Assembly: GCF_013299165.1 (NCBI RefSeq)
Contig: NZ_JAAFKD010000019.1
Coordinates: forward strand, 1 to 64,000
Source: Microcoleus sp. bin38.metabat.b11b12b14.051
Lineage (GTDB): Bacteria; Cyanobacteriota; Cyanobacteriia; Cyanobacteriales; Microcoleaceae
DNA length: 64,000 nucleotides
Direction: 5' to 3'
The translations under genes were made by a program, and so were the position numbers. The notes under the pieces are model-generated. The model did no database searches and was not told the origin of the DNA. It was given only the letters and a program-made list of their open reading frames with translations. Positions 5,808-26,280 of this stretch are shown in pieces (the first letter of the stretch is position 1; each line of letters opens with the position of its first letter).

Positions 5808-8800
5808 ATGAGTTCTACCTTCGCTCAAACCAATTCACAATCTTCTTTGGAAAAACTGCCCCTACGTTCCTTAGTGTTCATTGATTCTGGGGTCAAAAAT
5901 TACGAGGGAATTGCAGCGGGAGTGCTGCCAGGACAGCAGGTCGTAATCCTCGACGGCACCAAAAACGGCATCGAACAAATCTCCTCTGAAATTGAAAAAT
6001 ACGCTTCTACCAACGGGGCGATCGACTCGGTTCACATTATTTCTCACGGCAGTTCTGGCAACCTGCAACTCGGCAATACCGCTCTAGGTTCAGATAACAT
6101 AGAGCAATACAAAGGTCAGTTGGAAAAGTGGCAGACTTCCCTGGCACCATCCGCAGACATTATGCTCTACGGCTGCGATGTAGCAGCAGGTACAGGCGCT
6201 AATTTCGTTGACAAGCTCAGCCAATTAACCGGCGCTGACGTTGCCGCATCCACCAACATTACTGGCAAAGACGGCGACTGGAACTTAGAATTTGCTAAGG
6301 GTCAAATAGAATCTCCCTTAGCCTTAAAACCGGACGTGATGGCAAATTACCAAGGTGATTTAGCTACTATCGTCGTCAGCAACAATAGCGATAGCGGCCC
6401 AGGCTCATTGAGGGCTGCGGTGGCATCTGCTGTAGCCGGGGATACAATTACCTTCGCTCCTGGTTTGGCTGGCCAAACAATCAGTCTGACTAGCGGTCAA
6501 ATCGACATTCCTGTTGGCAAAAACCTCACGATTGACGGCACCGCAGCAGCAGGTTTAACCATCAGTGGCAACAACGCATCCCGCGCCTTTTTTGTCAATG
6601 CAAACGTGGTGACTGCTACGAGTTTTGCCGTCAAAAATCTCTCTATTGCCAACGCTAAAACGACAGGGACAGGTGGCGCGATCGGCACAACCGATGAAGT
6701 AAATCTGACAGTAGACAACGTTCAGTTCAATAACAACGTTGCCGACAAGGGTGGTGGGGCAATCTTCGGAAATTTCAACAATACCCTGACTGTATCGAAC
6801 AGTAAATTCAACGGCAACATTGCCACCGCAGGTAATGATGAACGCGGTGCAGGTGCGATCGGCTTTTTGAGTTCCAAAGCTTTTACTGTCACCAACAGCG
6901 ACTTCACCAACAACAAGGGAATTAACGGTGGGGCAATTAACAGCCTTCAGGGCAAGTTAACAATTGACAACTCGCGATTCATCGGCAACGACACCACCGC
7001 AGCCGTTTACGCAACAGGCCAAGATAATCCCTTTTTAAGGGGTTTTGGTGGCGCAGTTTACACAGACAGAGCCAGTTCTCTAACTGAAGCTTCCGGGACA
7101 ATTAAGATTACCAATAGCGTATTTCAAGACAACAAAGGCCGAGGTGAAGGAGGTGCAGCTTATCTGTTCACAGGCAGCCAAGACAAGGTAATTTTGGAAA
7201 ACAGCACCTTCCAAAATAACGAAATTCTGGCGCTACCCAACGGTGGCAGCCCTGGAAACGGTGGTGCGGTAACAAATTTGAGCGACAGCACCAACCAGGG
7301 ATTGACCATTACCAACACCACCTTTGCCGGCAACAAAGCTGGCGAGCAAGGTGGCGGGCTGTGGATGAAAAATGCCCCTGCGACGATTACCAACAGTACG
7401 TTTTCTGGTAACTCGGTTCCTACTACTGTGGCTGATGGCTTCGGCAAACTCGGCGGTGCAATGACTCTTGGTGCGCCCACAACTATTGTCAACACGACGA
7501 TCGCCGATAATTACGCTGGCTGGATTGGTGGAGGTATCTTCGCCGCTGCCAATGATGTCACCCTCAAAAACACGATTTTTGCCAACAATACAGCGGGTAA
7601 CGGAGGAAACCCTTGGGGAATTAACCAACACACCACCGCCCAATACAGCGATCAAGGAGGAAATTTTCAGTGGCCGCTGACTGGCAGCGATACGAAGGTG
7701 ACGACAAGTGTGACGGTGGCAGATCCTTTACTTGGCCCTCTGCAAAACATCAACGGTGCTGTCGTCAGGCCCCTGCTGGTAGGAAGTCCGGCGATCGATA
7801 AAGGCGTTGACAGCGGGCTGGCTGCCGATCAGCGAGGCGTCACTCGCCCTCAAGACGGCGACACCATTCCCGGGGCGATCTTTGACAGCGGATCTTTTGA
7901 ATTCACCACTGCTGTCGTGCCGACTCCGACTCCGACTCCGGCGCCAACTCCAACCCCCGCACCGACTCCGACTCCCACACCGACTCCGGCGCCAACTCCC
8001 ACACCCGCGCCGACTCCGACTCCCACACCGACTCCGGCGCCAACTCCCACACCCGCACCGACTCCGACTCCGACTCCGACTCCGGCGCCAACCCCAACAC
8101 CCGCGCCGACTCCGACTCCCACACCGACTCCGGCGCCAACTCCAACACCCGCGCCGACTCCGACTCCGACTCCGACTCCGGCGCCAACTCCAACACCCGC
8201 GCCGACTCCGACTCCGACTCCGACTCCGGCGCCAACTCCAACACCCGCACCGACTCCGACTCCGACTCCAGTCGGCCCCACTCCCACACCGACGCCAGCG
8301 CCGACTCCGACGCCAGCGCCGACACCCACTCCCACACCGACTCCGGCGCCGACTCCGACACCCGCGCCGACACCCACTCCCACACCGACTCCGGCGCCGA
8401 CTCCGACACCCGCGCCGACACCCACTCCCACACCGACTCCGGCGCCGACTCCGACACCCGCGCCGACACCCACCCCGGTATCGGATGCTTGCGTGCTTGA
8501 TGGCCTCAACCCGCCGCAACTCGACCCTGCGACTATCACCCCCAACCCCGTCCAACAAACTTTAGACGGCAGCGACGCTAACAATTTGATTATGGGGGGC
8601 GCCATCAACGAGTCGATTAACGGACTTGCTGGTAACGACACTCTCTACGGGATGGGCGGCAATGACAACATTGACGGCGGTGCCGATAACGACTTGCTCT
8701 TCGGCAATGACGGCAACGATTTAATCAAAGGTGGTACTGGGAATGACACCATTTATGGTGGCAAGGGTAATGACACTGTTGTTGGCGACGATGGCAACGA

Positions 8801-9458
8801 CTGGTTGCTGGGAGATTTCGGCAAAGATACTGTTGCCGGCGGTATGGGCAACGACACCATTTTTGGCGGCAAAGATGACGATATTTTGCTCGGTGAAGAT
8901 GGCGACGACTATCTGTTAGGCAACTTAGGAAATGACACAATTAATGCTGGCAGCGGCAACGATATTGTGTTCGGTAATGAAGGTGCAGACTTGCTGTTTG
9001 GTGACGTAGGAAATGACACGCTTTACGGCGGCAAAGACAATGACAGTCTCGATGGCGGTATTGGCAACGATTTGCTGTTCGGCGGCAATGAAAACGATAT
9101 TCTCTGTGGCGACAGCGGCAACGATACCCTGTACGGTGGCAAAGGCAACGATTTCCTCACAGGCGGTGCTGGCAGCGATTTCCTCAGCGGCGATGTTGGG
9201 GACGATACTTTGACTGGCGGTTCGGGAAGTGATATATTCTTCCTCACTCAAAGTGCGGGTAGCGACATCATTACTGATTTCCGTAAGGGCGAGGATTTAA
9301 TTGGTTTGGCTCCCGGTTTGAGTTTCAATCAACTCAGCATTACGTCGGGCAACAATCAAACTTTGATTAGCGTGACGGGCACCAATCAATTGTTAGCTAA
9401 GCTTAACGGTACGCCCGGTACTCTCAGCGCTGGCGATTTCACTCAGGTAACAATCTAA
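5808..9458 (+). CDS. DUF4347 / beta-helix / Pro-Thr linker / RTX repeat protein
   Basis: A 1216-residue probable exported protein. Residues about 20-185 are DUF4347, with the SHG and [13 protein letters not shown] motifs. Residues about 187-690 form a right-handed beta-helix of the SLRAAV type, rich in NNTA and GGG repeats. Residues about 703-890 are an almost pure Pro-Thr-Ala linker. About 20 RTX-type GGxGNDxLxG nonapeptide repeats follow, and the C-terminus is [18 protein letters not shown] repeats bind calcium and usually go with type I secretion. No N-terminal signal peptide is seen, consistent with a C-terminal secretion signal. The role is unknown, perhaps adhesion or surface structure. 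It is a paralogue of the gene at 10514, and no transporter is encoded nearby. Confidence 0.92.
7917..8478 (+). repeat. Minisatellite coding for the Pro-Thr-Ala linker
   Basis: Tandem 42-bp units encode [14 protein letters not shown], with one VGP interruption near 8270. Synonymous variation (GACTCCG against GACTCCC) sorts the units into blocks, a sign of local duplication. Copy number is likely to vary between strains. Confidence 0.85.
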
Positions 9459-10513: not shown

Positions 10514-13500
10514 ATGAGTTCAAATTTGACCAGTATTGATTCACAATATCTTCTCCGCAATTCTCGTCCTCATTCTCTTGTCTTCATTGACTCCGATGTA
10601 GATGATTATCAAACTCTTGCGGGCGGGGTGCTTGGGAATGCAGAGACGATTATTTTAGATAAAAATGGTAACGGAGTCGAGCAGATTACTGCGAAACTGC
10701 AATCCATTGCTGCTGCGGGGGGAATTGTAGACCAGGTTCACATTTTTTCTCACGGTAATTCTGGTAGCTTGCAGCTTGGTTCTGCGACGCTGAATGTGGA
10801 TAGTTTGCCTCAGTATGAAAGCCAGTTGCAAGGGTGGCGAAATACGCTGAGCGACAAAGCTGATATCATGCTCTACGGTTGCGATGTGGCTGCGGGTGAC
10901 GGGGCTAATTTTGTCGATCGCCTTTCGGAGTTAACCGGAGCTGATATTGCTGCATCTACCGATCGCACTGGCCGCGGCGGTAACTGGAATTTGGAGTTTG
11001 CCAAGGGCGATATTGAAGCACCCAGTGCCTTGACTCCAGAGACAATGGTCGATTACCGAGGGGCTTTAGCGACTGTTACCGTTACCAACAATAATGATAG
11101 CGGTGCCGGTTCCTTGAGAGATGCGATCGCCTCCGCAGCAGCCGGCGATACCATTCAATTTTCCTCGACTCTTGCCAATCAAACAATTGTTTTGACTTCG
11201 GGTCAGTTGGTTATCAACAAAAACTTGACAATTGATGCTGTTAGTGCTAGCAATTTAACCGTCAGCGGTAACAACTCTTCGCGGGTAATCCTGACACAAG
11301 ATGCAACCAATGTTACTCTAAAAAACCTGATTGTTGCCAACGGACGAGTGTCTGGAACCGATCCGAATAACGAAACAACTAGCGCAGGCGGTGGCATTCA
11401 AACGGGAGGTGGCAGCAATTTAACTTTAGAAAATTGCCAAGTAAATAATAATGTTGCGGGTTTCGGCGGTGGCATTTATACCGGTTTCCGCAGCAGCACA
11501 ACTGTGATTAACAGCAAGTTTAGCGGCAATGACGGTTCTTTGGCGGATAATACCGAACGCGGTGGCGGGGCGATCGCCACTAAGAGCGGGGGTTCTCTGA
11601 CTATCAGAGGTAGTGAATTTAGCAACAACAAAGGCAGCTACGGCGGGGCTGTAAATAACCTGTTGGGCAGCATGACGATCGAAAACTCTAAATTCACCGG
11701 CAACCGCACAGACAAAAACGTTGGTGGGGCAGTTTTCGTCGATGGGGCTAGCGAATTAACTAACGATGCGATCGGTGGCAACATCATTATTCGCGGCAGC
11801 ACTTTTGACGGCAATATTGGAGCCGGAGAAGGAGGGGCAGCCTTTCTGTTCGGTTATCCCCCAGATAAAATGGTGCTAGAAAATAGCACTTTTATCAACA
11901 ACAAAGCTGTCAAAAAAGCAGATGGTACAGGAGGTTCAGCAGGCGCAGTACGTCAGGGAAATGCCGATTTTACTGTTACAAGCTGTACCTTTGCCAACAA
12001 CACAGCCGATGATAACGGCGGCGGTTTGTGGATAGGGGAAGAGAGCAACATCAACATTGTTAACAGTACATTTTACAACAACACCGCTGCTCAACAAGGC
12101 GGAGGAATGGTAATCGCTAACGCAGATTCCTTTTCGACTAACATCGTCAATTCGACTTTTGCCAAAAATACCGCTGGGGAATATTCGGGAGGCATTTCTA
12201 CCTTTAACGATCCTAACAAGTCCCCAATTACTGTCAAAAATTCGATTTTTGATAGGAATACGGCTGGTAATATTTATAAAATCGGTCAGCAGACTGGACG
12301 CGCACTAATTGACGGGGGAAATAATCTGCAATTTCCCAATAAATTTACGGTGGGCGATCCTAATGACAATAATGTCACGGAAAATGTGACGATCGCCGAT
12401 CCTTTACTCGGATCTCTGCAAAACTTTAACGGCGCTTTGGTGCTGCCGCTGCTAGCCGGAAGTCCTGCCATTGATACGGGTACAGGTGCGGGCGCGCCGG
12501 CTGTGGATGAGCGCGGTGTCAGTCGCCCTCAAGATGGTGATAATAACGGAAGTGCGATCGTAGATATCGGCGCTTTTGAATACAGCACCGCAGTCATACC
12601 CACGCCAACTCCCACGCCGGCGCCCACTCCCACACCCGCACCAACTCCCACGCCAACTCCCACGCCGGCGCCAACTCCCACTCCCACACCCGCACCGACT
12701 CCCACGCCAACTCCCACGCCGGCGCCAACTCCCACACCCGCACCGACTCCCACGCCGACTCCCACGCCGGCGCCAACTCCCACACCCGCACCGACTCCCA
12801 CGCCAACTCCCACGCCGGCGCCAACTCCCACACCCGCACCGACTCCCACGCCGACTCCCACGCCGGCGCCAACTCCCACACCCGCACCAACTCCCACGCC
12901 AACCCCCACGCCGGCGCCAACTCCCACACCCGCACCGACTCCCACGCCAACCCCCACGCCCGTATCGGGTACAGATGATTGCCTGTTCAATGGCCTCAAC
13001 GCCCCGCAACTCGACCCTGCTGCCATTATTTCCAACTCCGTCCAACAAACTTTCAACGGCGGTAGCGGCAACGATTCGATCGTGGGCGGCGCCATTAACG
13101 AGTCGATTAACGGACTAGCCGGCAACGATACTCTCTACGGGATGGGCGGCAATGATAACCTCGACGGCGGCGCCGATAACGACTTAATTTTCGGCAACGA
13201 AGGCACCGATTTTGTTCAAGGTAATACCGGCAACGATACTGTCTACGCAGGTAAAGACAATGACACTGTTCTTGGCGGAGATGGCGACGACTTTTTGAGA
13301 GGAGATTTCGGCAAAGATACTGTTGCAGGTGGCAGCGGCAATGACACGATTTTTGGTGGCAAAGATGAGGATATTTTGCTGGGCGAAGATGGCGACGACT
13401 ATCTGTTAGGAAATTTAGAAAACGACACAATTAATGCTGGCAACGGTAGCGATATTGTGTTTGGTAATGAAGGTGCAGACTTGCTGTTTGGTCAACTTGG

Positions 13501-13945
13501 AAATGACACCATTTATGGAGGTAAAGAAAATGACAGTCTCGATGCTGGTGAGGGCAACGATTGGCTGTTCGGTGGCAATGACAACGATGCGATGTGCGGC
13601 GACATCGGCAACGATACGCTTTACGGCGGCAAAGGCAACGATACGCTTTACGGCGGTGCTGGTGCCGATTTCCTCAGCGGCGATATTGGAGATGACACTT
13701 TGACCGGCGGTTCGGGAAGAGATGTATTTTTGCTAAATCAAAGTGTGGGTAGCGACATCATTACCGATTTCCGCAAGGGCGAGGACTTAATTGGGTTGAA
13801 TCCCGGTTTGAGTTTCAATCAACTCAGTATTACTTCGAGCAACAATCAAACTTTGATCGGTGTGACGGGAACTAATCAATTGTTAGCGAAGCTTAACGGT
13901 GTAGCGCCCGGTACTCTCACTGCTAGCGATTTCATCAGTCAGTAG
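10514..13945 (+). CDS. DUF4347 / beta-helix / Pro-Thr linker / RTX repeat protein (paralogue)
   Basis: An 1143-residue paralogue of the protein at 5808, with the same domain order. DUF4347 spans about 15-185 ([16 protein letters not shown]). The beta-helix spans about 187-685 and opens with [16 protein letters not shown]. The Pro-Thr-Ala linker, about 694-817, is shorter than in the paralogue. RTX repeats fill about 840-1085, followed by [15 protein letters not shown]. The C-terminal 250 residues are nearly identical between the two proteins, suggesting recent duplication or gene conversion. A calcium-dependent, type I-secreted surface or extracellular protein is the likely reading; its partner and function are unknown. 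The start ATG lacks a strong ribosome site. Confidence 0.92.
12598..12965 (+). repeat. Minisatellite coding for the Pro-Thr-Ala linker
   Basis: Tandem units encode the same [14 protein letters not shown] peptide as in the paralogue, but with CCCACG-rich codons. The DNA repeats therefore expanded separately in each gene, although the peptide is the same. Confidence 0.8.
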
Positions 13946-14107: not shown

Positions 14108-14182
14108 ATGATTCGCTTCATTACCCATCAGATGAAAATATGGACGCTGTGGCATCTTAATTATTGGTTCTCTGGTTTTTTT
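14108..14182 (+). pseudogene. Relic of an ethylene-binding domain
   Basis: The translation KIWTLWHLNYWFSGF corresponds to DIWTLWHSAYWLSGI in the intact receptor at 15256, immediately after its metal-binding CxxxH motif. Sequence on both sides does not align, so only this short piece of a former paralogue remains. Confidence 0.55.
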
Positions 14183-14439
14183 CAAGCCCACATACCAGCG
14201 CGTCACACAGAAGAACTACTCATAATCAGCGATTTTAAAAGTTTCAAATTATATTTTTTATAAACATTTATCCGTTAAGATACGGTATCAAAATCTAAAT
14301 TAGAGCTTCATTATTTTCTAAGATTCAGTAAAATCCGAGGGTAAAAGTTAAGGTTTATAAATTTGGAGCGAAGCTATTACGGTGTTGATAAAGCTACGTA
14401 GAGTACGAGTGCTAGTGGCACTAATCCCAAAAATATTGG

Positions 14440-15110
14440 CTATCCCCAGCCGCGAGCTATTTTATTTGAGAAGACTTGCCAAAAATTTTGGGTTAGATTA
14501 AAATTGGAGCATAGGGCATCAAAGACCTCGTTAAATTTTTACGCATCTTCTGCCGCTGAGAGCAAGCCGATCTGAAAAATCTAAATATTAATGAAGAGAA
14601 CGATCGCATTTTAATCATTTTTCAGCACAGCTCGAAAGAACAGCAAAACCGTCCGCCTATCAAAGTGATGAAATAGTATGGAAATTTGCCACATTGGGAA
14701 TGATATGCGGCACAACTCAACCAAGTATTTATGAATATTTTTTCTAGGGTATTGATGCTTGAGAACAGATGGTGCCTCAGGAAAATTCGTACAAAGGCGA
14801 TTGGAAAAATAACTTACCTGACCGCTTACAATCTACCCATTCCCAACAGCTAACTATTGGCATTCGCACGTTTTTAGTTGATGGCAAGTCGGTGCAGATT
14901 CGTATTGCTGGTAATGGGATACGACGAAATATATCGGTTGTGGTACGGGCTGGGTACATAATTTATTATCAGATTATTCAAGCCCGTGAAGATTATTTGC
15001 GCTGCACTTGCAAGGTTGGGAGGGCTAGTGAGTTGATGATTAAAATTCCCTTGAAATCAAAATCTCACCCACAAGCCACTTGCTCGGAAAAATTTTTGGT
15101 AAAGCTGTAA
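14440..15110 (+). pseudogene. Decayed histidine kinase (dimerisation/ATPase region)
   Basis: Frame by frame this segment still spells a cyanobacterial histidine kinase. LPKIL and IKIGA are followed by GIKDLVKFLRIF, then DLKNLNINEEN, FQHSSKEQQNRPPIKVMK, YGNLP, and YAAQLNQVFMNIFS, which matches YAGQLNQVFMNLLS of the intact kinase at 28947. VQIRIAGNG (ATP-binding box) comes next, then ELMIKIPLK at the end. In-frame stops, at least one frameshift and loss of the glycine-rich lid region make it inactive. The last part still reads as an open 113-codon frame from 14769. Confidence 0.8.
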
Positions 15111-15255: not shown

Positions 15256-18200
15256 ATGTGGCAAATAGTCAAAGATATCTTTTCTCCAACTCAGTATATG
15301 CCGCACGGTCACTGCTATTTGTGGCAAACACCTTTGGTGTGGCTGCACATAACCGGCGACTTTTTAATCGCGATCGCCTATTTTTCAATTCCGGCGATGC
15401 TGATTTATTTTGTGTTTAAGCGCCGCGACGTTCCTTTTTTAGGAATATTTGCTTTATTTGGTGCATTCATTATTCTCTGCGGCACCGGTCACTTGCTAGA
15501 CATTTGGACGCTGTGGCATTCCGCTTATTGGCTGTCGGGGATAGAAAAAGCAATTACTGCTCTCGTTTCTTGCTACACTGCCGGATCGATGGTAACGCTA
15601 CTACCCCAGTTTTTGTCATTAAAGACTCCTCAGGAATTAGAAGCAATTAATATCAAGTTGGAACGGGAAATCGCCGTTCGCGAAGATGCAGAATTAGCTC
15701 TCCGCTGTGCCTACGAAGATTTAGAAATTAAAGTGCAGGAGCGCACTGCACAGTTGAGAGAAACCAACAGTTGCTTAGAAATGGAAGCTCGCGAGCGCCA
15801 AGAAGCCGAGTTAAAATTGCGCTCTGTAACCGAACGCTTGCAATATTTGCTAGCTACTACTCCGGCAGTGATTTTTAGCTGCAAGTTAGGGGGTAAACAT
15901 GACATAACATTTGTCAGCGATAACATTGTTTCACTGATCGGCTACGAAGCGGGAGATTTTTTTGAGGATTCCTTTGATTGGCACAGCCTCATTCACCCCG
16001 AAGATCGAGAAATTGTCGATGCTGCATTCACTCAAATATTGGAAAAAGAATCGATTTCCTACGAATACCGCGAACGTCACAAAGACGGTAGTTATCGTTG
16101 GATGTACGATGAGGTTAAGTTGGTCAAAGATGCTGCTGGCATACCTCTGGAGTGTGTTGGTTATGGAGTAGATATTACAGCTCGCAAACAAGCAGAATCA
16201 GCTTTGCAGCAGCAACTTAAAAGGGAGCAGCTTGTAGATGCGATTCAAGAGCGGATTCGGTCTTCTCTCAACCTAGAAGAAGTTATGAGAATGGCTGTTG
16301 AAGAAGTGCGCCAGTTTTTGTCAACTGACAGAACAGTTATTTACCGCTTTCGCCCAGATTGGAGTGGATTTGTAGCAGTAGAGTCGGTTGCAAGAGGTGT
16401 CATGCCGATTTTGGGAATTGATATTAATGACAATTGTTTTCGCGAAGGCTACGTTCCTATTTATGCACAGGGACATATTCGGGCGATCGACAATATTTAC
16501 ACTGCTGGTATTTCCGAGTGCCACATTAATCTACTCAGCGAATTTCAAATTAAAGCTAACCTTGTGGTTCCCATTTTGCAAGGGGAAAAGTTATGGGGCT
16601 TGCTAATTGCCCATCACTGCCACAGTCAAAGACATTGGAACTCTTCTGAGATAGAATCTCTCAAGCAAATTTCCGTGCAGCTAGCAATTGCCATCCAGCA
16701 ATGCACGCTATTTGAACAAGCTCAAACAGAAATTTCTGAGCGCAAGTTGGCAGAATCAGCGCTGCAAAAAGCTGTCGTGGTTGCTGATGCTGCTAACCTC
16801 GCCAAAAGCGAATTTCTTTCTTCTATGAGTCACGAATTGCGTACTCCCTTGAATGCAATTCTGGGATTTAGTCAGGTGATGGTGCGCGATTCATCTCTCA
16901 ACGATCAACACCAGCAACACCTGGAAATTATTAATCGGGCTGGGGAACATTTGCTGTCCCTGATTAATGACATTTTGGAAATGTCTAAAATTGAAGCAGG
17001 CAGAAGTCAGCTTAACGAAGGTAGTTTTAATTTAATACGCCTGCTAGAAACCTTAGAAGATATGTTCCGATTGAAAGCTAAATCTAAGAGATTGCAGCTC
17101 AATTTTGAGGTGGCTAACAGCGTACCGCACTTTGTCAATGGAGATGAGGGTAAATTGCACCAAATTTTGATTAATATTGTAGGAAATGCAATTAAGTTTA
17201 CAGAGAGGGGTAGTGTTACGTTGCGACTGAAAAACCAGGTAGAAGAAAATTGGGCTGCCCAAACGGCAGAGTTGGCGGAAGCAGAAACAAAAACTGCCGA
17301 AATCGACTCCGAAACCTCGCCACCTGGGGATTTTGATTGTGTAGACGCCCATTCTATTCGCCCGGTATCTTTAGGCCTTCATTTTGAAATTGAAGATACT
17401 GGCCCCGGTATTGCCCCAGAAGAAATGGGGAAGTTATTTGCACCATTCGAGCAAACAAAAGCAGGTTATAAATCCCAACAGGGAACAGGACTAGGTTTAC
17501 CAATTAGTCGGAAGTTTGTACAAATGATGGGAGGTGATATTGCTGTTTGTAGTACACCTGATTTGGGAAGTACGTTTTCATTTGATATTCAACTCAGGCT
17601 GGCTGAGCCTAGCGAGATTCAAATGCTTAAACCGCAGAAAAAAGTGATTGGTTTAGCACCAAATCAACCAGAATATCGGATTTTAGTAGTAGACGATCGC
17701 GCTGATAACTGTCTAGTCATAGATAGATTATTATCACCGCTAGGAATCCTCGTGCGAGAAGCTAGAAATGGTCAAGAAGCTATTGCTCTATGGGAGGATT
17801 GGCAACCGCACCTGATTTGGATGGATATGCAGATGCCTGTCATGAATGGCTATGAAGCCACCAGACAAATTAAATCTCATCCTCTCGGGAAAAACACCGT
17901 GATTGTGGCTCTCACTGCTAGCGCTTTTGAAGAGGAACGAAAAACTATCTTAGACGCAGGCTGCGACGATTTTTTGCGTAAACCCTTTGAAGCAAAAATA
18001 CTATTCTCTATTATAGAGAAACATTTAGGACTCCGCTATATTTACGCGGAACCTGTTTCTGTTAATGTCGAAAATGAAAGCCAAATTAATGGGATTGCTG
18101 GCCATCATCAATCTGTAGAAGCCCAACTCTGTCAAATGCCTATTGATTGGGTGGAGCAGATCCATAAAGCTGCTCATGAATGCTACGACGATAAAATTAT

Positions 18201-18330
18201 GCGATTGATTGAAGAAATGCCTAGAGAGTTGGCGAGTGCTGCACAAGTTTTAAATGATTTAGCACATGATTTCCTATTCGATGATATTATAGATTTAGCG
18301 AAATCTGCGGTTAAGGCGCGTCAGTCTTAA
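15256..18330 (+). CDS. Ethylene-receptor-like hybrid histidine kinase with CBCR-type GAF
   Basis: A 1024-residue membrane sensor. Residues about 1-125 have three membrane helices matching the ethylene-binding domain of plant ETR1 and cyanobacterial Etr1. Asp35, Tyr42, Ile72, Cys75 and His79 stand exactly ten positions after ETR1 Asp25, Tyr32, Ile62, Cys65 and His69, the copper and ethylene site. A coiled coil (130-190) leads to a PAS/PAC domain (195-315). The GAF domain (330-490) carries DNCF (Cys394) and the bilin-attachment Cys422-His423, as in DXCF cyanobacteriochromes. Next come HisKA (His526 in SHELRTP), HATPase (about 640-785), a receiver (about 808-930, Asp857) and a helical tail. It probably integrates ethylene and light; the adenylate cyclase 36 bases downstream is a likely partner. 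Confidence 0.92.
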   Translation: MWQIVKDIFSPTQYMPHGHCYLWQTPLVWLHITGDFLIAIAYFSIPAMLIYFVFKRRDVPFLGIFALFGAFIILCGTGHLLDIWTLWHSAYWLSGIEKAITALVSCYTAGSMVTLLPQFLSLKTPQELEAINIKLEREIAVREDAELALRCAYEDLEIKVQERTAQLRETNSCLEMEARERQEAELKLRSVTERLQYLLATTPAVIFSCKLGGKHDITFVSDNIVSLIGYEAGDFFEDSFDWHSLIHPEDREIVDAAFTQILEKESISYEYRERHKDGSYRWMYDEVKLVKDAAGIPLECVGYGVDITARKQAESALQQQLKREQLVDAIQERIRSSLNLEEVMRMAVEEVRQFLSTDRTVIYRFRPDWSGFVAVESVARGVMPILGIDINDNCFREGYVPIYAQGHIRAIDNIYTAGISECHINLLSEFQIKANLVVPILQGEKLWGLLIAHHCHSQRHWNSSEIESLKQISVQLAIAIQQCTLFEQAQTEISERKLAESALQKAVVVADAANLAKSEFLSSMSHELRTPLNAILGFSQVMVRDSSLNDQHQQHLEIINRAGEHLLSLINDILEMSKIEAGRSQLNEGSFNLIRLLETLEDMFRLKAKSKRLQLNFEVANSVPHFVNGDEGKLHQILINIVGNAIKFTERGSVTLRLKNQVEENWAAQTAELAEAETKTAEIDSETSPPGDFDCVDAHSIRPVSLGLHFEIEDTGPGIAPEEMGKLFAPFEQTKAGYKSQQGTGLGLPISRKFVQMMGGDIAVCSTPDLGSTFSFDIQLRLAEPSEIQMLKPQKKVIGLAPNQPEYRILVVDDRADNCLVIDRLLSPLGILVREARNGQEAIALWEDWQPHLIWMDMQMPVMNGYEATRQIKSHPLGKNTVIVALTASAFEEERKTILDAGCDDFLRKPFEAKILFSIIEKHLGLRYIYAEPVSVNVENESQINGIAGHHQSVEAQLCQMPIDWVEQIHKAAHECYDDKIMRLIEEMPRELASAAQVLNDLAHDFLFDDIIDLAKSAVKARQS

Positions 18331-18366
18331 TATGTTCGATGTTGAAAAAATACCGTTAGCGATCGC

Positions 18367-19506
18367 ATGAACAGCAATTCGACAAGTTCCGCCATCATTC
18401 TAATAGTTGATGATACGCCAGATAACGTGCGTCTTTTATCTACAATCCTAACTGAGCAAGGCTATCAGGTTCGTAAAGCGTTGAATGGGCCAAGAGCTTT
18501 GGCGACGGTGCAGGAGTTTCCGCCGAATCTAATTCTGCTGGACGTGATGATGCCAGAGATGAATGGATATGAGGTGTGCGCGCAGTTGAAAGCTTCAGCA
18601 CAAACCAGTTCCATTCCGGTGATATTTTTAAGCGCCTTAGATGATGTTTTAGATAAGGTGAAAGCCTTTGATGTTGGAGCAGTTGACTATATTACTAAAC
18701 CTTTTCAAGGTAAAGAAGTATTGGCACGAGTGGCAAATCAGTTAACAATTCAAAGCCAGCAAAAGCTACTTCTAGAACAAACTAAGCAATTAGAAGAACT
18801 TGTCGAATGTTTGCAAAATGAAATTAAAGAGCGGGAAGCGGTTGAGCTAGCTTTAAGGCTGGCTCAACAAAAGTCGGATGATTTATTGCTAAATATTTTA
18901 CCTGCTGCGATTGTTGAAAATTTGAAAAAAGGCGAAGGTTATCCTGCTGAGAGGTTTGAGTCAGCAACAGTGCTGTTTGCGGATCTTGTCGATTTTACTT
19001 CTCTTGCTGCGAGAATTTCACCACTAGAATTGGTGGATTTGCTCAATCAAATTTTTTCTAAGTTTGACGAACTAACTGAAAAACACGGTTTGGAGAAAAT
19101 TAAAACAATTGGAGATGCTTATATGGTAGCAGGGGGTTTGCCTGTGCCGAGGGCAGATCATGCAGATGCGATCGCCAATATGGCTTTGGATATGCAGGAG
19201 GCGATCGCAAATTTTAAAGCGGACACAGGCGAACCATTTCAAATTCGGATTGGCATTCATACAGGCCCAGTAGTTGCTGGGGTAATTGGCACTAAAAAAT
19301 TTATCTATGATTTGTGGGGGGATACTGTTAATGTTGCTTCTCGGATGGAATCACACGGATTATCGGGATATATTCAAGTTACTGGGGCTGTTTACGAACA
19401 GTTAAAAGATCGGTATTTATTTGAGGAACGGGGCGAAATTACGGTTAAAGGTAAAGGAGATACGAGCGTTTATTGGCTCAAGGCTAAAAAAATCCGTTGC
19501 AGCTAA
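18367..19506 (+). CDS. Response regulator with adenylate cyclase output
   Basis: A 379-residue protein. The N-terminal receiver domain (about 10-130) has the DDTP acidic pocket and the phospho-acceptor in LLDVMMPEMNG. A coiled linker (130-185) follows, then a class III nucleotide cyclase domain (about 195-370). FADLVDF and GDAYM give the two metal-binding Asp residues. Lys246 in KTIGDAYM and Asp315 in YDLWGDTVNVASRM are the purine-specifying pair of adenylate cyclases; guanylate cyclases have Glu and Cys there. It should make cAMP from ATP when its receiver is phosphorylated. The gene follows the ethylene/CBCR kinase by 36 bases on the same strand, so a two-gene operon is likely. Confidence 0.92.
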   Translation: MNSNSTSSAIILIVDDTPDNVRLLSTILTEQGYQVRKALNGPRALATVQEFPPNLILLDVMMPEMNGYEVCAQLKASAQTSSIPVIFLSALDDVLDKVKAFDVGAVDYITKPFQGKEVLARVANQLTIQSQQKLLLEQTKQLEELVECLQNEIKEREAVELALRLAQQKSDDLLLNILPAAIVENLKKGEGYPAERFESATVLFADLVDFTSLAARISPLELVDLLNQIFSKFDELTEKHGLEKIKTIGDAYMVAGGLPVPRADHADAIANMALDMQEAIANFKADTGEPFQIRIGIHTGPVVAGVIGTKKFIYDLWGDTVNVASRMESHGLSGYIQVTGAVYEQLKDRYLFEERGEITVKGKGDTSVYWLKAKKIRCS

Positions 19507-19701: not shown

Positions 19702-20982
19702 TTAAAAAATGAAAATAATTTGCAGATTCACCTGAGAATTTTTCCGGACTATTTCAATGCGATCGATAAATTCTCTAAAGTAGAACCTCCGTTCCGATTC
19801 CGATAAGTCGAGCCAAAATTGGGGAAGAGAAACAGTTTGAGCAATTTCTCGCAAATTTACGGGGGGCATTTGCGCTAATTTGCTTTGCAGTTCTGCAACT
19901 TCTGTGCGTATTTTATAGGAGCGCAAATCAGCGGTTTCTGTGTCTAAAATGCCGCTTGCAATCAGGGCGGGGAGTTGCTCTAGGATTTGTTGTTTAGATT
20001 GGATCGCCGCAGCCATTCCTGCTTTGATTACATTCAGATCCGGCATTTGCAAACCAGCAACAGCATCGGGCAAATCGCGACAAATTCTCGCTATGGTTAA
20101 TTGCAATACTTCTTCGTAGGAAATGCCGCGGCATTTAGGCTGTGACAGACAGTTAATCGGTCGCAAATAAAGGTATTCTTTCTCTTTGCGGTAGGCTGTG
20201 ACTTTGGCAACTGTCATGGGCGATTTGCACTCGGCGCAAATTGCTAAACCTGCGAGGGAACGCGGGGCGCTGGCGCTGCGGGGAGCAAGGCCGCGGTTGC
20301 GCCGCAGCAATCTGTCTATTTGGGCGGCTTCTTCTCTGGAAATAATCGGGACGTGGGTGTTAGAAATTACTTGGCCGTTTTGATATTGTAAATCGCCTCG
20401 GTAGGCGGGATTTGTCAGCCAGCGGCGGCCTGTGCTGACGGAGATTTTTTTGTTGTATTTCTTTGCTAAATGGCGCACGGAACCGCGCAGGGAACCGTAG
20501 ATGAGAAAGTGTTCAAAAAAGTCTTTGACGGCGGGGGAGGCGGTTTTGTCGATCGTATATTTGTCTTTGCCGCGCCGGTAGCCGTAGGGGGCTTTTCCGG
20601 GTGGGGGAAGGGATTTGATGCGGTTGCGGGCGTGTCCTTTGCGAAGGCTGCGGCTGTGCTGGCTGCGCTGGAGTTCGGCGAGGAGTTTGAGCAAGTTGGC
20701 TCTGTTTTCTGTTTGTTTTTCGTCTGTGACAATTAGTTGGATGCCGAGGTTTTCTAGTTGTTCGAGGTGGGCGCACACTTGCTGTACTGTGTCGCCGAGT
20801 TCTTCAAAGCGCTGAATTAACAGGTATTTGACTGGTTCGGTTTGGCAGTCTTTTAGCAGTTGCTGGAGTTGCTGGCGCCCTCCTAAGTCTTGATAGGTGC
20901 GATCGACCTCTTGGCCCCAAATTTCCGCTGCTGGCGCAGGTTCTAGCAGCGGTTCGCTGTAAGAGTAGGCGATGATTTTCAT
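19702..20982 (-). CDS. Large serine recombinase-like protein, catalytic residues not conserved
   Basis: A 426-residue protein with the layout of large serine recombinases. There is an N-terminal resolvase-like fold (about 1-90), a recombinase domain with PPPGKAPYGYRR and RRWLTNPAYRGDLQY (about 115-230), a zinc ribbon with CAEC and NCLSQPKC (about 248-290), and a helical C-terminus. In the first domain the usual YxRVS stretch reads YSYSE, and the DRLGR pair of catalytic arginines reads EELGD. Strand exchange is therefore doubtful. It may act as a DNA-binding protein, as I know similar degenerate homologues in cyanobacteria. No attachment sites or phage genes lie nearby, but heptamer repeats flank the gene on both sides. 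Confidence 0.8.
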   Translation of the reverse strand: MKIIAYSYSEPLLEPAPAAEIWGQEVDRTYQDLGGRQQLQQLLKDCQTEPVKYLLIQRFEELGDTVQQVCAHLEQLENLGIQLIVTDEKQTENRANLLKLLAELQRSQHSRSLRKGHARNRIKSLPPPGKAPYGYRRGKDKYTIDKTASPAVKDFFEHFLIYGSLRGSVRHLAKKYNKKISVSTGRRWLTNPAYRGDLQYQNGQVISNTHVPIISREEAAQIDRLLRRNRGLAPRSASAPRSLAGLAICAECKSPMTVAKVTAYRKEKEYLYLRPINCLSQPKCRGISYEEVLQLTIARICRDLPDAVAGLQMPDLNVIKAGMAAAIQSKQQILEQLPALIASGILDTETADLRSYKIRTEVAELQSKLAQMPPVNLREIAQTVSLPQFWLDLSESERRFYFREFIDRIEIVRKNSQVNLQIIFIF

Positions 20983-21832: not shown

Positions 21833-23941
21833 ATGGCCTCCACTCTTTGGCAATTTCGTCTCCGCACCGCCCTCGTACTTCCCTTTGTGCTGCAAATCGT
21901 TGCAGCCGTTGGCTTAGTCGGCTATCTTTCCTTCCGTAACGGACAAAAAGCGGTAACAGATTTAGCTAACCAGTTAATGATTCAAGTAAGCGATCGCACT
22001 TATCGGCACTTAGATGATTATCTCTTAACTCCACATCAAATTAATCAGATCAATATCGATGCGATCGAAACAGGATTGCTGGATATAAATGACTTAGATA
22101 TTGCAGGACTTTATTTTTGGAAACAGGTGCAAGCATTCGATAATCTTGGCTTCATTTCCTATGGACTTTCAGATGGACGCTTTATTGGTGCTGGGCCAGT
22201 AAGAGCGGGAGAAGGCATCAGCATTGCCGAAGTTTCAGCAAGGACAAACTGGAAAATTAACGCGCATTTAACCGACGGCAAGGGCAATCGAATTAAGGTA
22301 ACGCAGGTTGCTCCTTACGATACGGTGACATTAGAATGGTACACTCAGGCAGCTCAAGCAGGGAAACCGATCTGGACTTCTGTCTATTCGCTAGATGAGC
22401 TTAACTTTATTGCTGTCGGGGCAATGCGTCCCATGTATGCCAAGGGCAAGCTAATCGGAGTGATTGGGGTCGATTTACAACTATCCAATATTACTAATTT
22501 TCTGCACAACTTAAACTTTAGTAAATCCGGGCGAATTTTCATTATGGAACGAGACGGACAATTGATTGGAAATTCTGGGCCGCAACCCTCTTTTATCAAG
22601 GTGAATAATCAAGTCAAACGCTTTAGCGCTCTCAACATCTCCGACCCTGCGATCCAAGCTGCTGCTAAAGCGTTGCAAGAACGGTTCGGTAGCTTTAAAA
22701 ATCTTAAAAATAGCGCCAGGATTAATATTAAAATTAAAGGTGAAAATTACTTTGTCCTCGTTGCTCCGTGGCAAGACAAGTTTGGGCTGGACTGGCCGAT
22801 CGTGACGGTGGTTCCCGAATCTGATTTTATGGGTCAAATCAATGCGAATACCCGCACCACAATTATCTTGTGTGCGATCGCATTTACTGTGGCAACGGCA
22901 ATTGGAATTTTCACAGCCCGCTGGATTGCTACCCCGATTGAAGCCATCACCCAAGCTTCGGAATACATGGCTAACGGCGATCTAGACCGACAGGTAAAAA
23001 CTAGCTCCCTTATCGAACTAAAAAAACTTGCGAACTCTTTTAACAGCATGGCAGGACAACTAAAAGAATCCTTTGAAACTCTAGAAGATAAAGTTACACA
23101 ACGCACCAGTGAACTCGCCACAGCTAACGCCGAAATTGTGACGCTCAATCAGCGACTCAAAGCCGAAAATATGCGAATGAGTGCTGAACTATACATTCTC
23201 AAACAAATGCAGCAGTTGATTTTGCCTAAACACCCAGAAATGCAGGAGATTGAAGACTTAGATATTGCCGGATTTATGGAACCAGCCGATGAAGTAGGTG
23301 GCGATTATTACGATATCCTCCATACTGACGGCGTGGTCACTATTGGCATCGGCGATGTCACCGGACATGGCTTAGAAAGCGGGATTTTGATGGTGATGAC
23401 TCAAGCGGCTGTCCGCACTCTTCACCAACTGAGAGAATCAGATCCGGTGCGTTTTTTAGATACCATCAACCGCACTATTTATCAAAATATTCAGCGCATG
23501 AGCTCAGACAAAAATCTGACGCTGGCTATTCTCAATTATGCCTGTGGAACAATCAGCATTAGCGGTCAGCATGAGGAAACTATTGTTGTCAGAAAAAACG
23601 GTAAGATCGAGCGGATTGATACAATAGATTTGGGATTTCCCATCGGCTTGGATGAGAATATTTCAGAGTTGATCCACCAAGTTTTAGTAAAGTTAGAACC
23701 GGGGGACGGAGTGGTGCTGTATACCGATGGCATTCCCGAAGCCCGAAATATTTACAAAAAATTCTACGGGATTGAGAGACTGTGTGAAGTGGTTTCGATT
23801 AATTGGCATAAAAGCTCCGAAGAAATCAAGCAATCGGCGATCGATGATTTACGAGAGTTTATTGGAGAACAAAAGGTTTTTGATGACATTACTTTAGTAA
23901 TTGTTAAGCTTAAGGATGGGTTGACAGTCAAGCACTTTTGA
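21833..23941 (+). CDS. Cache-HAMP-PP2C (SpoIIE/RsbU-type) serine phosphatase
   Basis: A 702-residue membrane phosphatase. A membrane helix (about 12-32) leads into an extracellular Cache-type sensor (about 45-335), a second membrane helix (about 340-362) and HAMP (362-415), then a coiled coil and the PP2C domain (about 465-695). Metal-binding motifs are GGDYYD, GDVTGHG, YTDGIPEA and FDDITLVIV. RsbU/IcfG-type enzymes dephosphorylate a STAS-domain antagonist and so release a partner-switch target. The STAS protein at 25616 and the ATPase at 24806 are the obvious partners, and a close paralogue lies at 26281. The ligand of the sensor is unknown. Confidence 0.92.
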   Translation: MASTLWQFRLRTALVLPFVLQIVAAVGLVGYLSFRNGQKAVTDLANQLMIQVSDRTYRHLDDYLLTPHQINQINIDAIETGLLDINDLDIAGLYFWKQVQAFDNLGFISYGLSDGRFIGAGPVRAGEGISIAEVSARTNWKINAHLTDGKGNRIKVTQVAPYDTVTLEWYTQAAQAGKPIWTSVYSLDELNFIAVGAMRPMYAKGKLIGVIGVDLQLSNITNFLHNLNFSKSGRIFIMERDGQLIGNSGPQPSFIKVNNQVKRFSALNISDPAIQAAAKALQERFGSFKNLKNSARINIKIKGENYFVLVAPWQDKFGLDWPIVTVVPESDFMGQINANTRTTIILCAIAFTVATAIGIFTARWIATPIEAITQASEYMANGDLDRQVKTSSLIELKKLANSFNSMAGQLKESFETLEDKVTQRTSELATANAEIVTLNQRLKAENMRMSAELYILKQMQQLILPKHPEMQEIEDLDIAGFMEPADEVGGDYYDILHTDGVVTIGIGDVTGHGLESGILMVMTQAAVRTLHQLRESDPVRFLDTINRTIYQNIQRMSSDKNLTLAILNYACGTISISGQHEETIVVRKNGKIERIDTIDLGFPIGLDENISELIHQVLVKLEPGDGVVLYTDGIPEARNIYKKFYGIERLCEVVSINWHKSSEEIKQSAIDDLREFIGEQKVFDDITLVIVKLKDGLTVKHF

Positions 23942-24000
23942 GCTGGGAGCCGTGGTTGATACTCAAGAGTTAATTCTCAAGTCCTTATAGACTTGTAAAT

Positions 24001-24696
24001 GGTAAATGCGATTCGGCTTAGATGAGGATATTTCAGATTGGCTCTGTCATGTTTTAGTAAACATAGAGCCGGGGATGGGGTGGTGGTTTACACTGATTTA
24101 CAGCAAAGTAGTCCCGAAATTTCCAACCATAACGGTTTTATTGTCAAGTATACGGGAAATGGACTGATGGCCGTTTTTCCCGAGGGCGTCGATCATGCTG
24201 TTCAGGCAAGAATTTTGAAGCTTGAACAGTTGCAAAAATTCAATCAAAACCGTATAATAAATGGGAGATTCCGCTGAATAGTGGCATTGGTATCCATGTC
24301 AGTGATACGATGGTGGTGATTATTTGAAAGGCGAATCGGATGCAAGCCGATGCGCTGTCGGCTCGGATCGATCTCACGGTTCGCCTGGAAAGCTTAACTC
24401 AGTATTATGGCGTATATTTATTAATCTCAGGAGATGTGGTACAACGTTTTAGTAAACCTGAAAAGTATCATATTCGATTTTTGGATCGGGCAATTGTCAA
24501 AGGCAGACAAGAAGCGATTACTGTGTGTGAGGTGTTAGATGTTGAGGTGGAACCAGTGCGATCGCTCAAAATTCAAATTTTGCCTGTTTTTGAGGAGGGG
24601 CTCGAACAATATTGTCAGGGAAATTTTGCTAAGGCTCAACTTTATTTTGAACACATTGTGGCGCTAAATCCCGCTGATAAACCCAGCCGAATCTAG
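24001..24696 (+). pseudogene. Chimeric relic: phosphatase C-terminus joined to an adenylate cyclase
   Basis: The first 100 bases closely resemble the end of the neighbouring phosphatase gene (GLDEDIS, HVLVNIEPG, DGVVVYTD), with a one-base deletion in the glycine codons. Then comes decayed class III cyclase sequence. NHNGFIVKYTGNGLMAVFPE corresponds to the KYTGDGLMAVF region, its metal Asp changed to Asn. NSGIGIHV, LSARI, YGVYLLISGD and YHIRFLDRAIVKG follow. The C-terminal part is still open as a 118-codon frame from 24340, but the catalytic core is broken by stops. It marks a former extra phosphatase and cyclase at this locus. Confidence 0.8.
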
Positions 24697-24805
24697 CTAA
24701 AACGCATCCAAGCACTGTTATAAAATAGTATTCCTGCTAACTGGAATAGCCTGTGGAAATTTACCCAGAAGTGACATTGATAGATTAATTGGAGTAATAA
24801 AAATA

Positions 24806-25417
24806 ATGACATCTGGAAGCTTACAAACTGTACCACAAATATTTGGAGAATTCATCGACGAATTTGCACCGGATCGCGACTCCCTAGAACTTACATTTAC
24901 GCCCACTTCTCGCCCCATCAAGCAGCGCTGGCGCAACAATAGGGTATCTGCTCATTTTGTGGCAGATTATTTGTCCAGTTTTATCCCGGTGGACGAGGAG
25001 GATGCTAGCAGCGAAAAACGGATTAAACAAAGCAAGGGAGCCGTGAGCTATATCGCCAATGAACTGTTAGAAAATGCGATAAAGTTTACAGATGAAAATA
25101 GTAATTATAAGGTTAATTTTGGCATCCATTTTCTGGGAAAATTTGATGTAATAGCGGTTATTTTTGCCACTAACTGCGTGCAGGAACCAGTGGCTAAAAA
25201 GTTGCAGGAATTCATTGCTAAAGTGTTGAATTCTGACTCGAATGAACTGTATTTACAGCAGCTTGAAAAGAATGCTGAATGTGAAGGTGAAACATCGGGA
25301 CTGGGATTGCTGACGATGATTAATGACTATTCAGCTAAGATTGGTTGGAAATTTGAAGCAATGCCAGATCGTCCCAACCTGCTCTGTATTACGACGCTAG
25401 TTCAAATTAGCGTTTAG
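24806..25417 (+). CDS. Histidine-kinase-like ATPase, probable partner-switch kinase
   Basis: A 203-residue soluble protein. SYIANELLENAIKFTDE (about 90-107) is the N-box of GHKL ATPases, and GETSGLGLLTMINDY (about 155-170) serves as the glycine-rich lid. It has no HisKA domain. The size and motifs fit a stand-alone anti-sigma-type or SiaB/DUF6272-like serine kinase, which would phosphorylate the STAS protein encoded 200 bases downstream. GGAG lies 11 bases before the ATG. Its place between two PP2C phosphatases and next to a STAS gene supports a partner-switching role; the target is unknown. Confidence 0.75.
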   Translation: MTSGSLQTVPQIFGEFIDEFAPDRDSLELTFTPTSRPIKQRWRNNRVSAHFVADYLSSFIPVDEEDASSEKRIKQSKGAVSYIANELLENAIKFTDENSNYKVNFGIHFLGKFDVIAVIFATNCVQEPVAKKLQEFIAKVLNSDSNELYLQQLEKNAECEGETSGLGLLTMINDYSAKIGWKFEAMPDRPNLLCITTLVQISV

Positions 25418-25539
25418 TTTTAACTGTTTCTATGTTAACTAGCCCAAAAAGAAATATAATTCCGCGACAAAAGTCGTGTGGTTCCCAAAATATTTGACTT
25501 TTGTTCAATCTCTGAGATTTATGTTTGGAGTAAATCTAT

Positions 25540-25563
25540 AATCTCAAATCTCAAATCTCAAAT
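25540..25563. repeat. Heptamer tandem repeat (TCTCAAA)
   Basis: Three to four 7-bp TCTCAAA units between the ATPase and STAS genes. They match the 7-bp period of the other short tandem repeats in the window. Confidence 0.75.
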
Positions 25564-25615
25564 CGATTGACTTTGTTGTGCGATCGCCATAATTAACTCA
25601 GGAAACTACAAAACA

Positions 25616-25969
25616 ATGGATATTCAGGAAATCAAAGGTCAAGACTACAGTATTCAATACGATCCACAATCGATGACAGTCTGTTTTCAAGGCGAACTCT
25701 GCTTAGACGGGGCGTCAGATTATAAGCCAATAGTTGATTTATTAGAGGGGGTCGCCAATCCCGAACCCCCTCACATTACTTTGAACCTCAAAAAATTGGA
25801 TTTTGTTAATAGTTCTGGGATTAATATGCTGTCTAAGTTTGTCATTACTGTGCGAAAAAAGAAAACTATTCAACTATTGGTAGTGGGTTCGACAGATGTT
25901 CCTTGGCAACAAAAGTCTCTCAAGAATTTAGAAAAGCTGTTGCCAACTTTGAAGTTAGAACTGGAGTAG
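25616..25969 (+). CDS. STAS-domain protein, anti-sigma-factor antagonist type
   Basis: A 117-residue protein. The core shows the STAS pattern: a strand around TVCFQGELCLDG, then HITLNLKKLDFVNSSGINML, a helix (SKFVITVRK) and a final strand (IQLLVVG). Ser in FVNSSGI (about residue 67) is at the usual phosphorylation position of SpoIIAA/RsbV-like antagonists. It is longer than the minimal domain only by a short C-terminal helix. The neighbouring ATPase should phosphorylate it, and the flanking PP2C proteins should dephosphorylate it. This repeats the logic of the icfG clusters known in cyanobacteria. Confidence 0.82.
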   Translation: MDIQEIKGQDYSIQYDPQSMTVCFQGELCLDGASDYKPIVDLLEGVANPEPPHITLNLKKLDFVNSSGINMLSKFVITVRKKKTIQLLVVGSTDVPWQQKSLKNLEKLLPTLKLELE

Positions 25970-26280
25970 CATAGTCGATCGCACTCGAAAACAAGTCAAA
26001 AGAGGCTTGACCTACACCAGAGAATACTGTATCAAAATACTTTGCTACATTTACCCGCAATCGCGGGTTTTTGTGGCTGTAGCGAGGGTTGGAACCTGTG
26101 GGCAGAAAGCGGGGATTTTGTGGCGGATTTGATATAATTTGAGCAGCTTGAGACTGGGAAACGATCGCGCGATCGATCGGACTCGTCGTGGCGATCGCAT
26201 ATTTGGCAGTCGATCGCTCCTTGTGTCTTTTGTTCGCAATGCTGAGACAACGCCAACAGCCCTGGGGAGTGTTTTTCACA

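Follow-up and report, generated by a model that had tools for sequence, protein, structure and literature searches.

Does a pair of adjacent genes in a Microcoleus-type cyanobacterium convert ethylene and light into a cyclic AMP (cAMP) signal? The pair lies in a window of 64,000 nucleotides (positions 1 to 64,000, forward strand, of contig NZ_JAAFKD010000019.1) from Microcoleus sp. bin38.metabat.b11b12b14.051 (assembly GCF_013299165.1), a cyanobacterium whose genome totals 7.07 Mb over 64 contigs. The first gene encodes a hybrid histidine kinase with an ethylene-binding-type (ETR) domain and a cyanobacteriochrome-type GAF domain, and the second encodes a response-regulator class III nucleotide cyclase. 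To our knowledge, function has been demonstrated for non-plant ethylene receptors in only a few bacteria, and their downstream pathways are poorly mapped. Our analysis suggests that the two genes probably form a unit of Microcoleus-type cyanobacteria through which ethylene and light alter cAMP, with one kinase phosphorylating the receiver of the cyclase. The two genes contain the following features, with residues numbered within each protein.

15256..18330, plus strand: hybrid histidine kinase of 1024 amino acids (aa), ordered ETR1_N, coil, PAS, GAF, HisKA, HATPase, receiver (REC) and C-terminal helical domain (open reading frame (ORF) and Pfam)
15334..15621, plus strand: ETR1_N ethylene-binding-type transmembrane domain, residues 27-122 (Pfam family match, invariant residues and model)
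15907..16161, plus strand: PAS domain (PAS_3), residues 218-302 (Pfam)
16270..16695, plus strand: cyanobacteriochrome-type GAF domain, residues 339-480 (Pfam, invariance and solved-structure matches)
16429-16440, plus strand: DNCF motif in the GAF domain, residues 392-395
16519-16524, plus strand: Cys-His in the GAF domain, residues 422-423
16801..17595, plus strand: HisKA and HATPase_c kinase core, residues 516-780 (HisKA 516-582), with His526 in SHELRTPLN
17680..18015, plus strand: internal receiver REC1 of the kinase (Response_reg), residues 809-920, with Asp857
18031..18327, plus strand: C-terminal helical domain of the kinase, residues 926-1024 (42-row alignment and model)
18367..19506, plus strand: response-regulator class III nucleotide cyclase of 379 aa with adenylate-type residues (ORF, Pfam and 26-row alignment)
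18397-18732, plus strand: receiver of the cyclase (Response_reg), residues 11-122, with Asp59
18946-19482, plus strand: class III cyclase domain (Guanylate_cyc), residues 194-372 (E 1.1e-67)

An earlier sequence-only reading of this DNA had placed the two genes correctly; its coordinates, lengths and the 36 bases between the end of the kinase gene and the start of the cyclase gene on the same strand were exact, and the internal receiver and PAS domain that it assigned to the kinase were recovered by Pfam. The ETR1_N profile scored 133.9 bits compared with a curated cut-off of 27, and the Pfam significance of the kinase and cyclase domains places them far from chance. Besides SHELRTPLN, the kinase core contains the N, G1 and G2 boxes. 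Neither protein gave a Pfam match to the histidine-containing phosphotransfer (HPt) family Hpt at E ≤ 0.01. The C-terminal domain is an extra conserved part of the kinase in which five helices are predicted confidently. An HPt concealed there was considered and ruled out, since no invariant or near-invariant His was found across the 42 aligned rows, despite the confidence of the helix prediction.

The ratio of nonsynonymous to synonymous substitution rates (dN/dS) was determined pairwise between the window genes and eight of the genus orthologues. The values ranged from 0.05 to 0.28 for the ETR domain, 0.09 to 0.27 for the GAF domain, 0.08 to 0.26 for the internal receiver and 0.17 to 0.23 for the cyclase domain, while the C-terminal tail of the kinase reached 0.31 to 0.67. 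Purifying selection thus acts on the sensors and the enzyme, with a looser hold on the tail.

The two sensory sites are fully conserved among close relatives. In an alignment of 16 orthologues (the window and 15 of 21 relatives; 22 genus orthologues exist), Asp35, Tyr42, Ile72, Cys75 and His79, which the sequence-only reading had proposed as the copper/ethylene residues of ETR1, are unchanged in every sequence. Among 41 more varied ETR domains, Tyr42 and His79 are invariant, and Asp35, Ile72 and Cys75 are kept in at least 90%. The model of the ETR domain consists of three long helices (25-55, 62-87 and 91-121; mean predicted local distance difference test score 81.5), the first bearing Asp35 and Tyr42 and the second bearing Ile72, Cys75 and His79. 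A Foldseek search with this model returned 0 of 128 matches at E ≤ 0.001, the PDB copy apparently lacking a solved relative. The likeness to Arabidopsis ETR1 lies in these site residues, and presumably Tyr32 and Ile62 of ETR1 complete a spacing that matches that of the window in full. The GAF domain of plant ETR1 is not known to carry a bilin, and the pathway downstream is another. Asp25, Cys65 and His69 are given as site residues of Arabidopsis ETR1 in PMC12643061.

The GAF domain contains Asp392, Cys394 and Phe395 of the DXCF motif as well as Cys422 and His423, and all five are likewise unchanged in the 16 orthologues, which bears out the earlier proposal of a DNCF cysteine together with a Cys-His site. 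Searches against solved structures matched 24 distinct sequences at E ≤ 1e-10, with 6oap the best at E 1.6e-51. These features assign the GAF domain to the DXCF cyanobacteriochrome class, with Cys394 as the predicted second cysteine beside the canonical Cys422-His423. Overall, family membership and the invariant site residues make a predicted dual-sensor anatomy of the kinase well supported.

Alternatively, the pair may be functional and act mainly as a light sensor, the ETR-like domain serving as a membrane anchor, a copper site or a redox sensor, with ethylene not being the physiological signal. A link between ETR1-type receptors and hydrogen peroxide is discussed in PMC3546692, and by BLAST mapping the ETR domain persists without the full copper site in four relatives, namely L156, in which the five positions read N-Y-L-S-H, and L153, L166 and L168, in which the Asp is replaced by Asn. 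We regard this alternative as unlikely because the five site residues are invariant among the orthologues and because the ETR domain in the nearest comparison (L087) has a dN/dS of 0.05, the lowest of seven parts. Furthermore, Geitlerinema and Synechocystis cells have been reported to bind ethylene, as has the SynEtr1 domain when produced in yeast (PMC6682694). The four altered relatives may possibly represent natural ethylene-blind variants.

Within the genus, the kinase and the cyclase occur together. Counted as present at E ≤ 1e-200, the kinase was found in 22 of 29 genomes including that of the window, and a cyclase orthologue with 82-100% identity was found in the same 22, the remaining seven having only paralogues at 54-56%. 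In all 21 relatives' loci read, the cyclase gene lies directly 3' of the kinase gene and in the same orientation, the L102 copy being cut at a contig end. Nine of the 21 relatives have a longer kinase (1219-1232 aa) with an insert between the coil and the PAS domain, identified by Pfam as a further GAF domain in the one long relative tested. In six genomes without the kinase (G006, G007, G009, G016, G023 and G025), the site is present from an adhesin-like gene to a recombinase gene, and both the kinase and the cyclase are missing. The seventh genome, G003, with 74% completeness and no match to the recombinase, was left out of the absence count. Joint presence in 22 genomes and joint absence in 6/6 therefore indicate that the two genes evolve as one unit and are genetically coupled, whether by gain or by loss. 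Conservation of the pairing in close relatives, on which the sequence-only reading had staked its proposal, is hence what we found: all 22 genus genomes with the kinase keep the cyclase.

Beyond the genus, the receiver of the partner stays constant while its output changes. A scan of named genomes gave 220 relatives, and the best 80 were used for the counts of named loci, in which 65 genes combine ETR, histidine kinase (HK) and receiver domains and 56 of these have HK and receiver domains at least 45% identical to those of the window. A partner was defined as a same-strand gene within 400 bases whose first domain is a receiver similar to the one in the cyclase. By this definition, 47 of the 56 kinases are followed by a partner, which is a cyclase in 22 cases, a GGDEF protein in nine, a receiver only in eight and another output in eight. 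Close orthologues (HK at least 70%) make up 20 of the 56, and 19 of these have the cyclase; the receiver-only neighbour of the twentieth, L129, is a cyclase cut by the contig end. Among the other 36, the neighbour is a cyclase in three (L151, L157 and L164), GGDEF in nine, a receiver only in seven, another output in eight and none in eight, with one at a contig edge. In two loci with only a receiver next (L148 and L158), a REC-cyclase stands as the second gene. Pfam scans of some of the partners identified kinase parts behind the receiver in L138 and L143 and GGDEF-EAL behind GeiEtr2 of Geitlerinema; in L141, the second gene is a REC-HK. That the adjacency is a quirk of one genome is ruled out by the genus loci and the named loci.

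Trees of the receivers and kinases were built with 14 close genus loci left out, and receiver matches of fewer than 95 model positions were kept out of the receiver tree. In the latter, a quick search over 104 receivers and 117 columns that left 54 of its 101 inner branches open, one branch with mixed outputs (Shimodaira-Hasegawa-like approximate likelihood ratio test 89) takes in 53 of the 56 partner receivers. The same branch also holds one REC-cyclase without an adjacent kinase and one receiver heading a kinase. The three partner receivers off the branch (L137, L181 and L185) all stand behind kinases outside the class of the window, and all 10 of the internal ETR-kinase receivers included fall off the partner branch. 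In the kinase tree (42 rows, quick search; L142 was dropped, as its unrounded identity fell below 45%), three changes of the cyclase label are required, and starred branches force two of these; cyclase pairing was therefore gained or lost more than once. A receiver kept behind this kinase class whatever its output goes beyond mere adjacency. At about even chances, in our judgement, the cyanobacterial ETR hybrid kinases share one partner-receiver lineage that acts as a plug, behind which outputs have been exchanged among cAMP synthesis, c-di-GMP (cyclic di-GMP) turnover and additional histidine kinases; within the Microcoleus group this plug would carry an adenylate cyclase, so that cAMP would be set by light together with a plant-hormone gas.

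A similar arrangement recurs within the genome of the window. The kinase core has 18 matches, 13 of them at 43% identity or more, and the neighbours of these 13 were read. Eight, including the window's, have a gene with this receiver type immediately after them; two others are in tandem ending in a receiver gene, one has a receiver gene upstream, and two have none. Three of those receiver genes carry cyclases (the window and contigs C26 and C12). The recurring copies therefore make the pair one instance of a general cassette of a kinase and a receiver-output gene, and its ETR-bilin front end is the predicted feature that distinguishes it from the others. Cassette copies L246, L257 and L259-L263, on contigs C1, C3, C6, C12, C25 and C26, have cyclase or histidine-kinase outputs. 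On C12, three kinases stand in a run ahead of one REC-cyclase.

These arrangements also bear on whether the genes stand together for co-expression only, with the kinase signalling through its internal receiver or a separate HPt to other regulators and another kinase driving the cyclase. The kinase does own a receiver, the genome has 15 HPt matches, two of the 13 closest kinase-core matches have no adjoining receiver gene, and a REC-cyclase with a partner-type receiver stands on contig C3 with no kinase of this class next to it. Nonetheless, we consider co-expression alone improbable, as the pair is jointly missing from all six assessable genomes, most of the closest kinase-core matches are directly followed by this receiver type, the receiver is retained while the output is swapped, and neither protein has an Hpt match.

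The residues of the cyclase point to the nature of its product. Asp206, Lys246, Asp250, Asp315, Asn322 and Arg326, together with Asp59 of the receiver, are kept in all 26 REC-cyclases aligned, the window's included. We take Asp206 and Asp250 to be the metal-binding pair and Lys246 and Asp315 to be the adenine-type residues, with Asn322 and Arg326 in their presumed class III roles. The adenine-type columns are visible in the alignment against adenylate cyclase 9. The product would thus be cAMP. A different product or an inactive enzyme, for instance a guanylate cyclase or a pseudo-enzyme, is conceivable as the Pfam model spans adenylate and guanylate cyclases alike, but is highly improbable given these invariant residues, with their presumed adenine type, and 13 best solved-structure matches that are all named adenylate cyclases. 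The genome counts of 37 class III cyclase and 5 Crp matches, in addition to the HPt matches, make a cAMP pathway plausible.

We return to the two genes as a probable ethylene- and light-responsive cAMP circuit, for which the following mechanism can be proposed. Copper in the three-helix membrane domain would bind ethylene, while a bilin on the DXCF-type GAF domain, held by Cys422 with Cys394 as the second cysteine, would sense light, with one state most likely absorbing violet or blue and the other a longer wavelength. The two signals may both reach the one histidine kinase through the coil and the PAS linker. The most economical route would then pass phosphate from His526 to Asp59 of the neighbouring receiver, and the phosphorylated receiver would change, whether up or down, the activity of the attached adenylate cyclase. 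Since no HPt follows the internal receiver, the most likely role of this domain, with Asp857, is to buffer or tune the kinase, perhaps as a sink or modulator.

Several observations weigh against such a circuit. Six sound genomes of the genus live without the pair, and with 37 cyclase and 18 kinase-core matches in one genome some adjacency is to be expected. Eight of the 56 named kinases have no receiver-type neighbour and one lies at a contig edge; among the 36 more distant kinases, 27 have a receiver neighbour and only three have the cyclase directly next to them (two more as the second gene), and the receiver tree is a quick search on few columns with many open branches. The kinase-cyclase link drawn by the sequence-only reading gains comparative support from the pairing and from the receiver group common to the kinase class, although in more distant relatives the partner is mostly not a cyclase. 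The ETR domain is under weaker constraint in three of the eight comparisons (dN/dS 0.25-0.28 for L090, L091 and L092 versus 0.05-0.13 in the other five), and neither the Foldseek search with its model, at E ≤ 0.001, nor a PDB sequence search with the domain, which returned a single unrelated match (E 0.017), turned up a solved relative. Finally, the partner of GeiEtr2 is a c-di-GMP enzyme, REC-GGDEF-EAL, whereas the window has a class III cyclase.

GeiEtr2 of Geitlerinema (Baaleninema simplex) PCC 7105, our locus L136, is described as a 1025-aa protein whose gene groups with one encoding a diguanylate cyclase domain (PMC6682694). It has the same domain order as the kinase of the window, an ETR/PAS/GAF/receiver hybrid kinase followed by a receiver-output gene, with identities of 64% in the ETR domain, 47% in the HK and 56% in the receiver. 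By BLAST mapping, its GAF domain is without the DXCF cysteine and has Cys-Tyr where the window has Cys-His. The possibility that its neighbour is a mislabelled class III cyclase was ruled out, as Pfam shows REC-GGDEF-EAL, which agrees with the published "diguanylate cyclase domain" (PMC6682694).

Synechocystis Etr1, which the earlier reading had cited as a dual sensor, is so described: SynEtr1/UirS (slr1212) of Synechocystis PCC 6803 is a receptor for ethylene and light (PMC6682694, PMC3546692), and UirS is described both as blue/green photoreversible and as a UV-A sensor (PMC3546692). Compared by description, it resembles the kinase of the window in combining an ETR domain, a dual-cysteine cyanobacteriochrome GAF domain and a histidine kinase; it differs in that the published description gives no internal receiver and in that its partner UirR is an AraC-type regulator rather than a cyclase (PMC3546692). 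Likewise, coupling of a kinase to an adenylate cyclase has a precedent in Anabaena PCC 7120, in which the phytochrome-like histidine kinase AphC is said to phosphorylate and activate the adenylate cyclase CyaC (PMC4284465), although no ethylene domain is mentioned for it there. Among the matches listed in the open-access literature, we found no ethylene receptor with a cyclase partner, and one may be described elsewhere. While the modules, the combination of ETR and bilin domains and kinase-cyclase coupling are known, the wiring of an ETR kinase to cAMP and the exchange of outputs look new.

As cAMP is tied to motility in cyanobacteria (PMC4284465), the circuit, if true, would be a compact way for gas and light to steer the behaviour of soil-crust and mat formers. 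That outputs have been swapped behind a single receiver lineage points to a way in which ethylene front ends may have been rewired, and offers a natural series of cAMP versus c-di-GMP.

Two further features flank the pair directly.

14120..15062, plus strand: remains of a decayed ETR-histidine kinase gene upstream of the pair (four tblastn pieces, 47-74% identity)
19702..20982, minus strand: serine recombinase (Resolvase, Recombinase and zinc ribbon), a fixed flanking marker that we do not count in the circuit

Two of the four remnant pieces have in-frame stops, and the remnant overlaps a 113-aa ORF at 14769-15110. The short upstream ETR-histidine kinase is intact in 10 of the 21 relatives read (513-551 aa; Pfam domains of one), is in two pieces in L098, and has only an end kept in L089. 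Intact copies in relatives and a remnant here therefore indicate a fuller unit of two ETR kinases and one cyclase, from which the line of the window has lost the short kinase here. A gene of 494 aa beyond the recombinase in G025 resembles the kinase half of this short kinase, with the ETR part missing. The serine recombinase has one match each in 28 of the 29 genus genomes and occupies the site with or without the pair, and mobilisation of the pair by it is thus unsupported.

Farther upstream, two long, similar adhesin-like genes (5808-9458 and 10514-13945, plus strand) contain Thr-Pro/Ala-Pro repeats and GNDT-type repeats, and the six genomes that lack the pair have relatives of these genes beside the site. 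Downstream, at 21833-28443 on the plus strand, two dCache-HAMP-SpoIIE phosphatase genes enclose a DUF6272 gene and a STAS gene, a group that is partly syntenic in relatives and possibly represents a partner-switching module.

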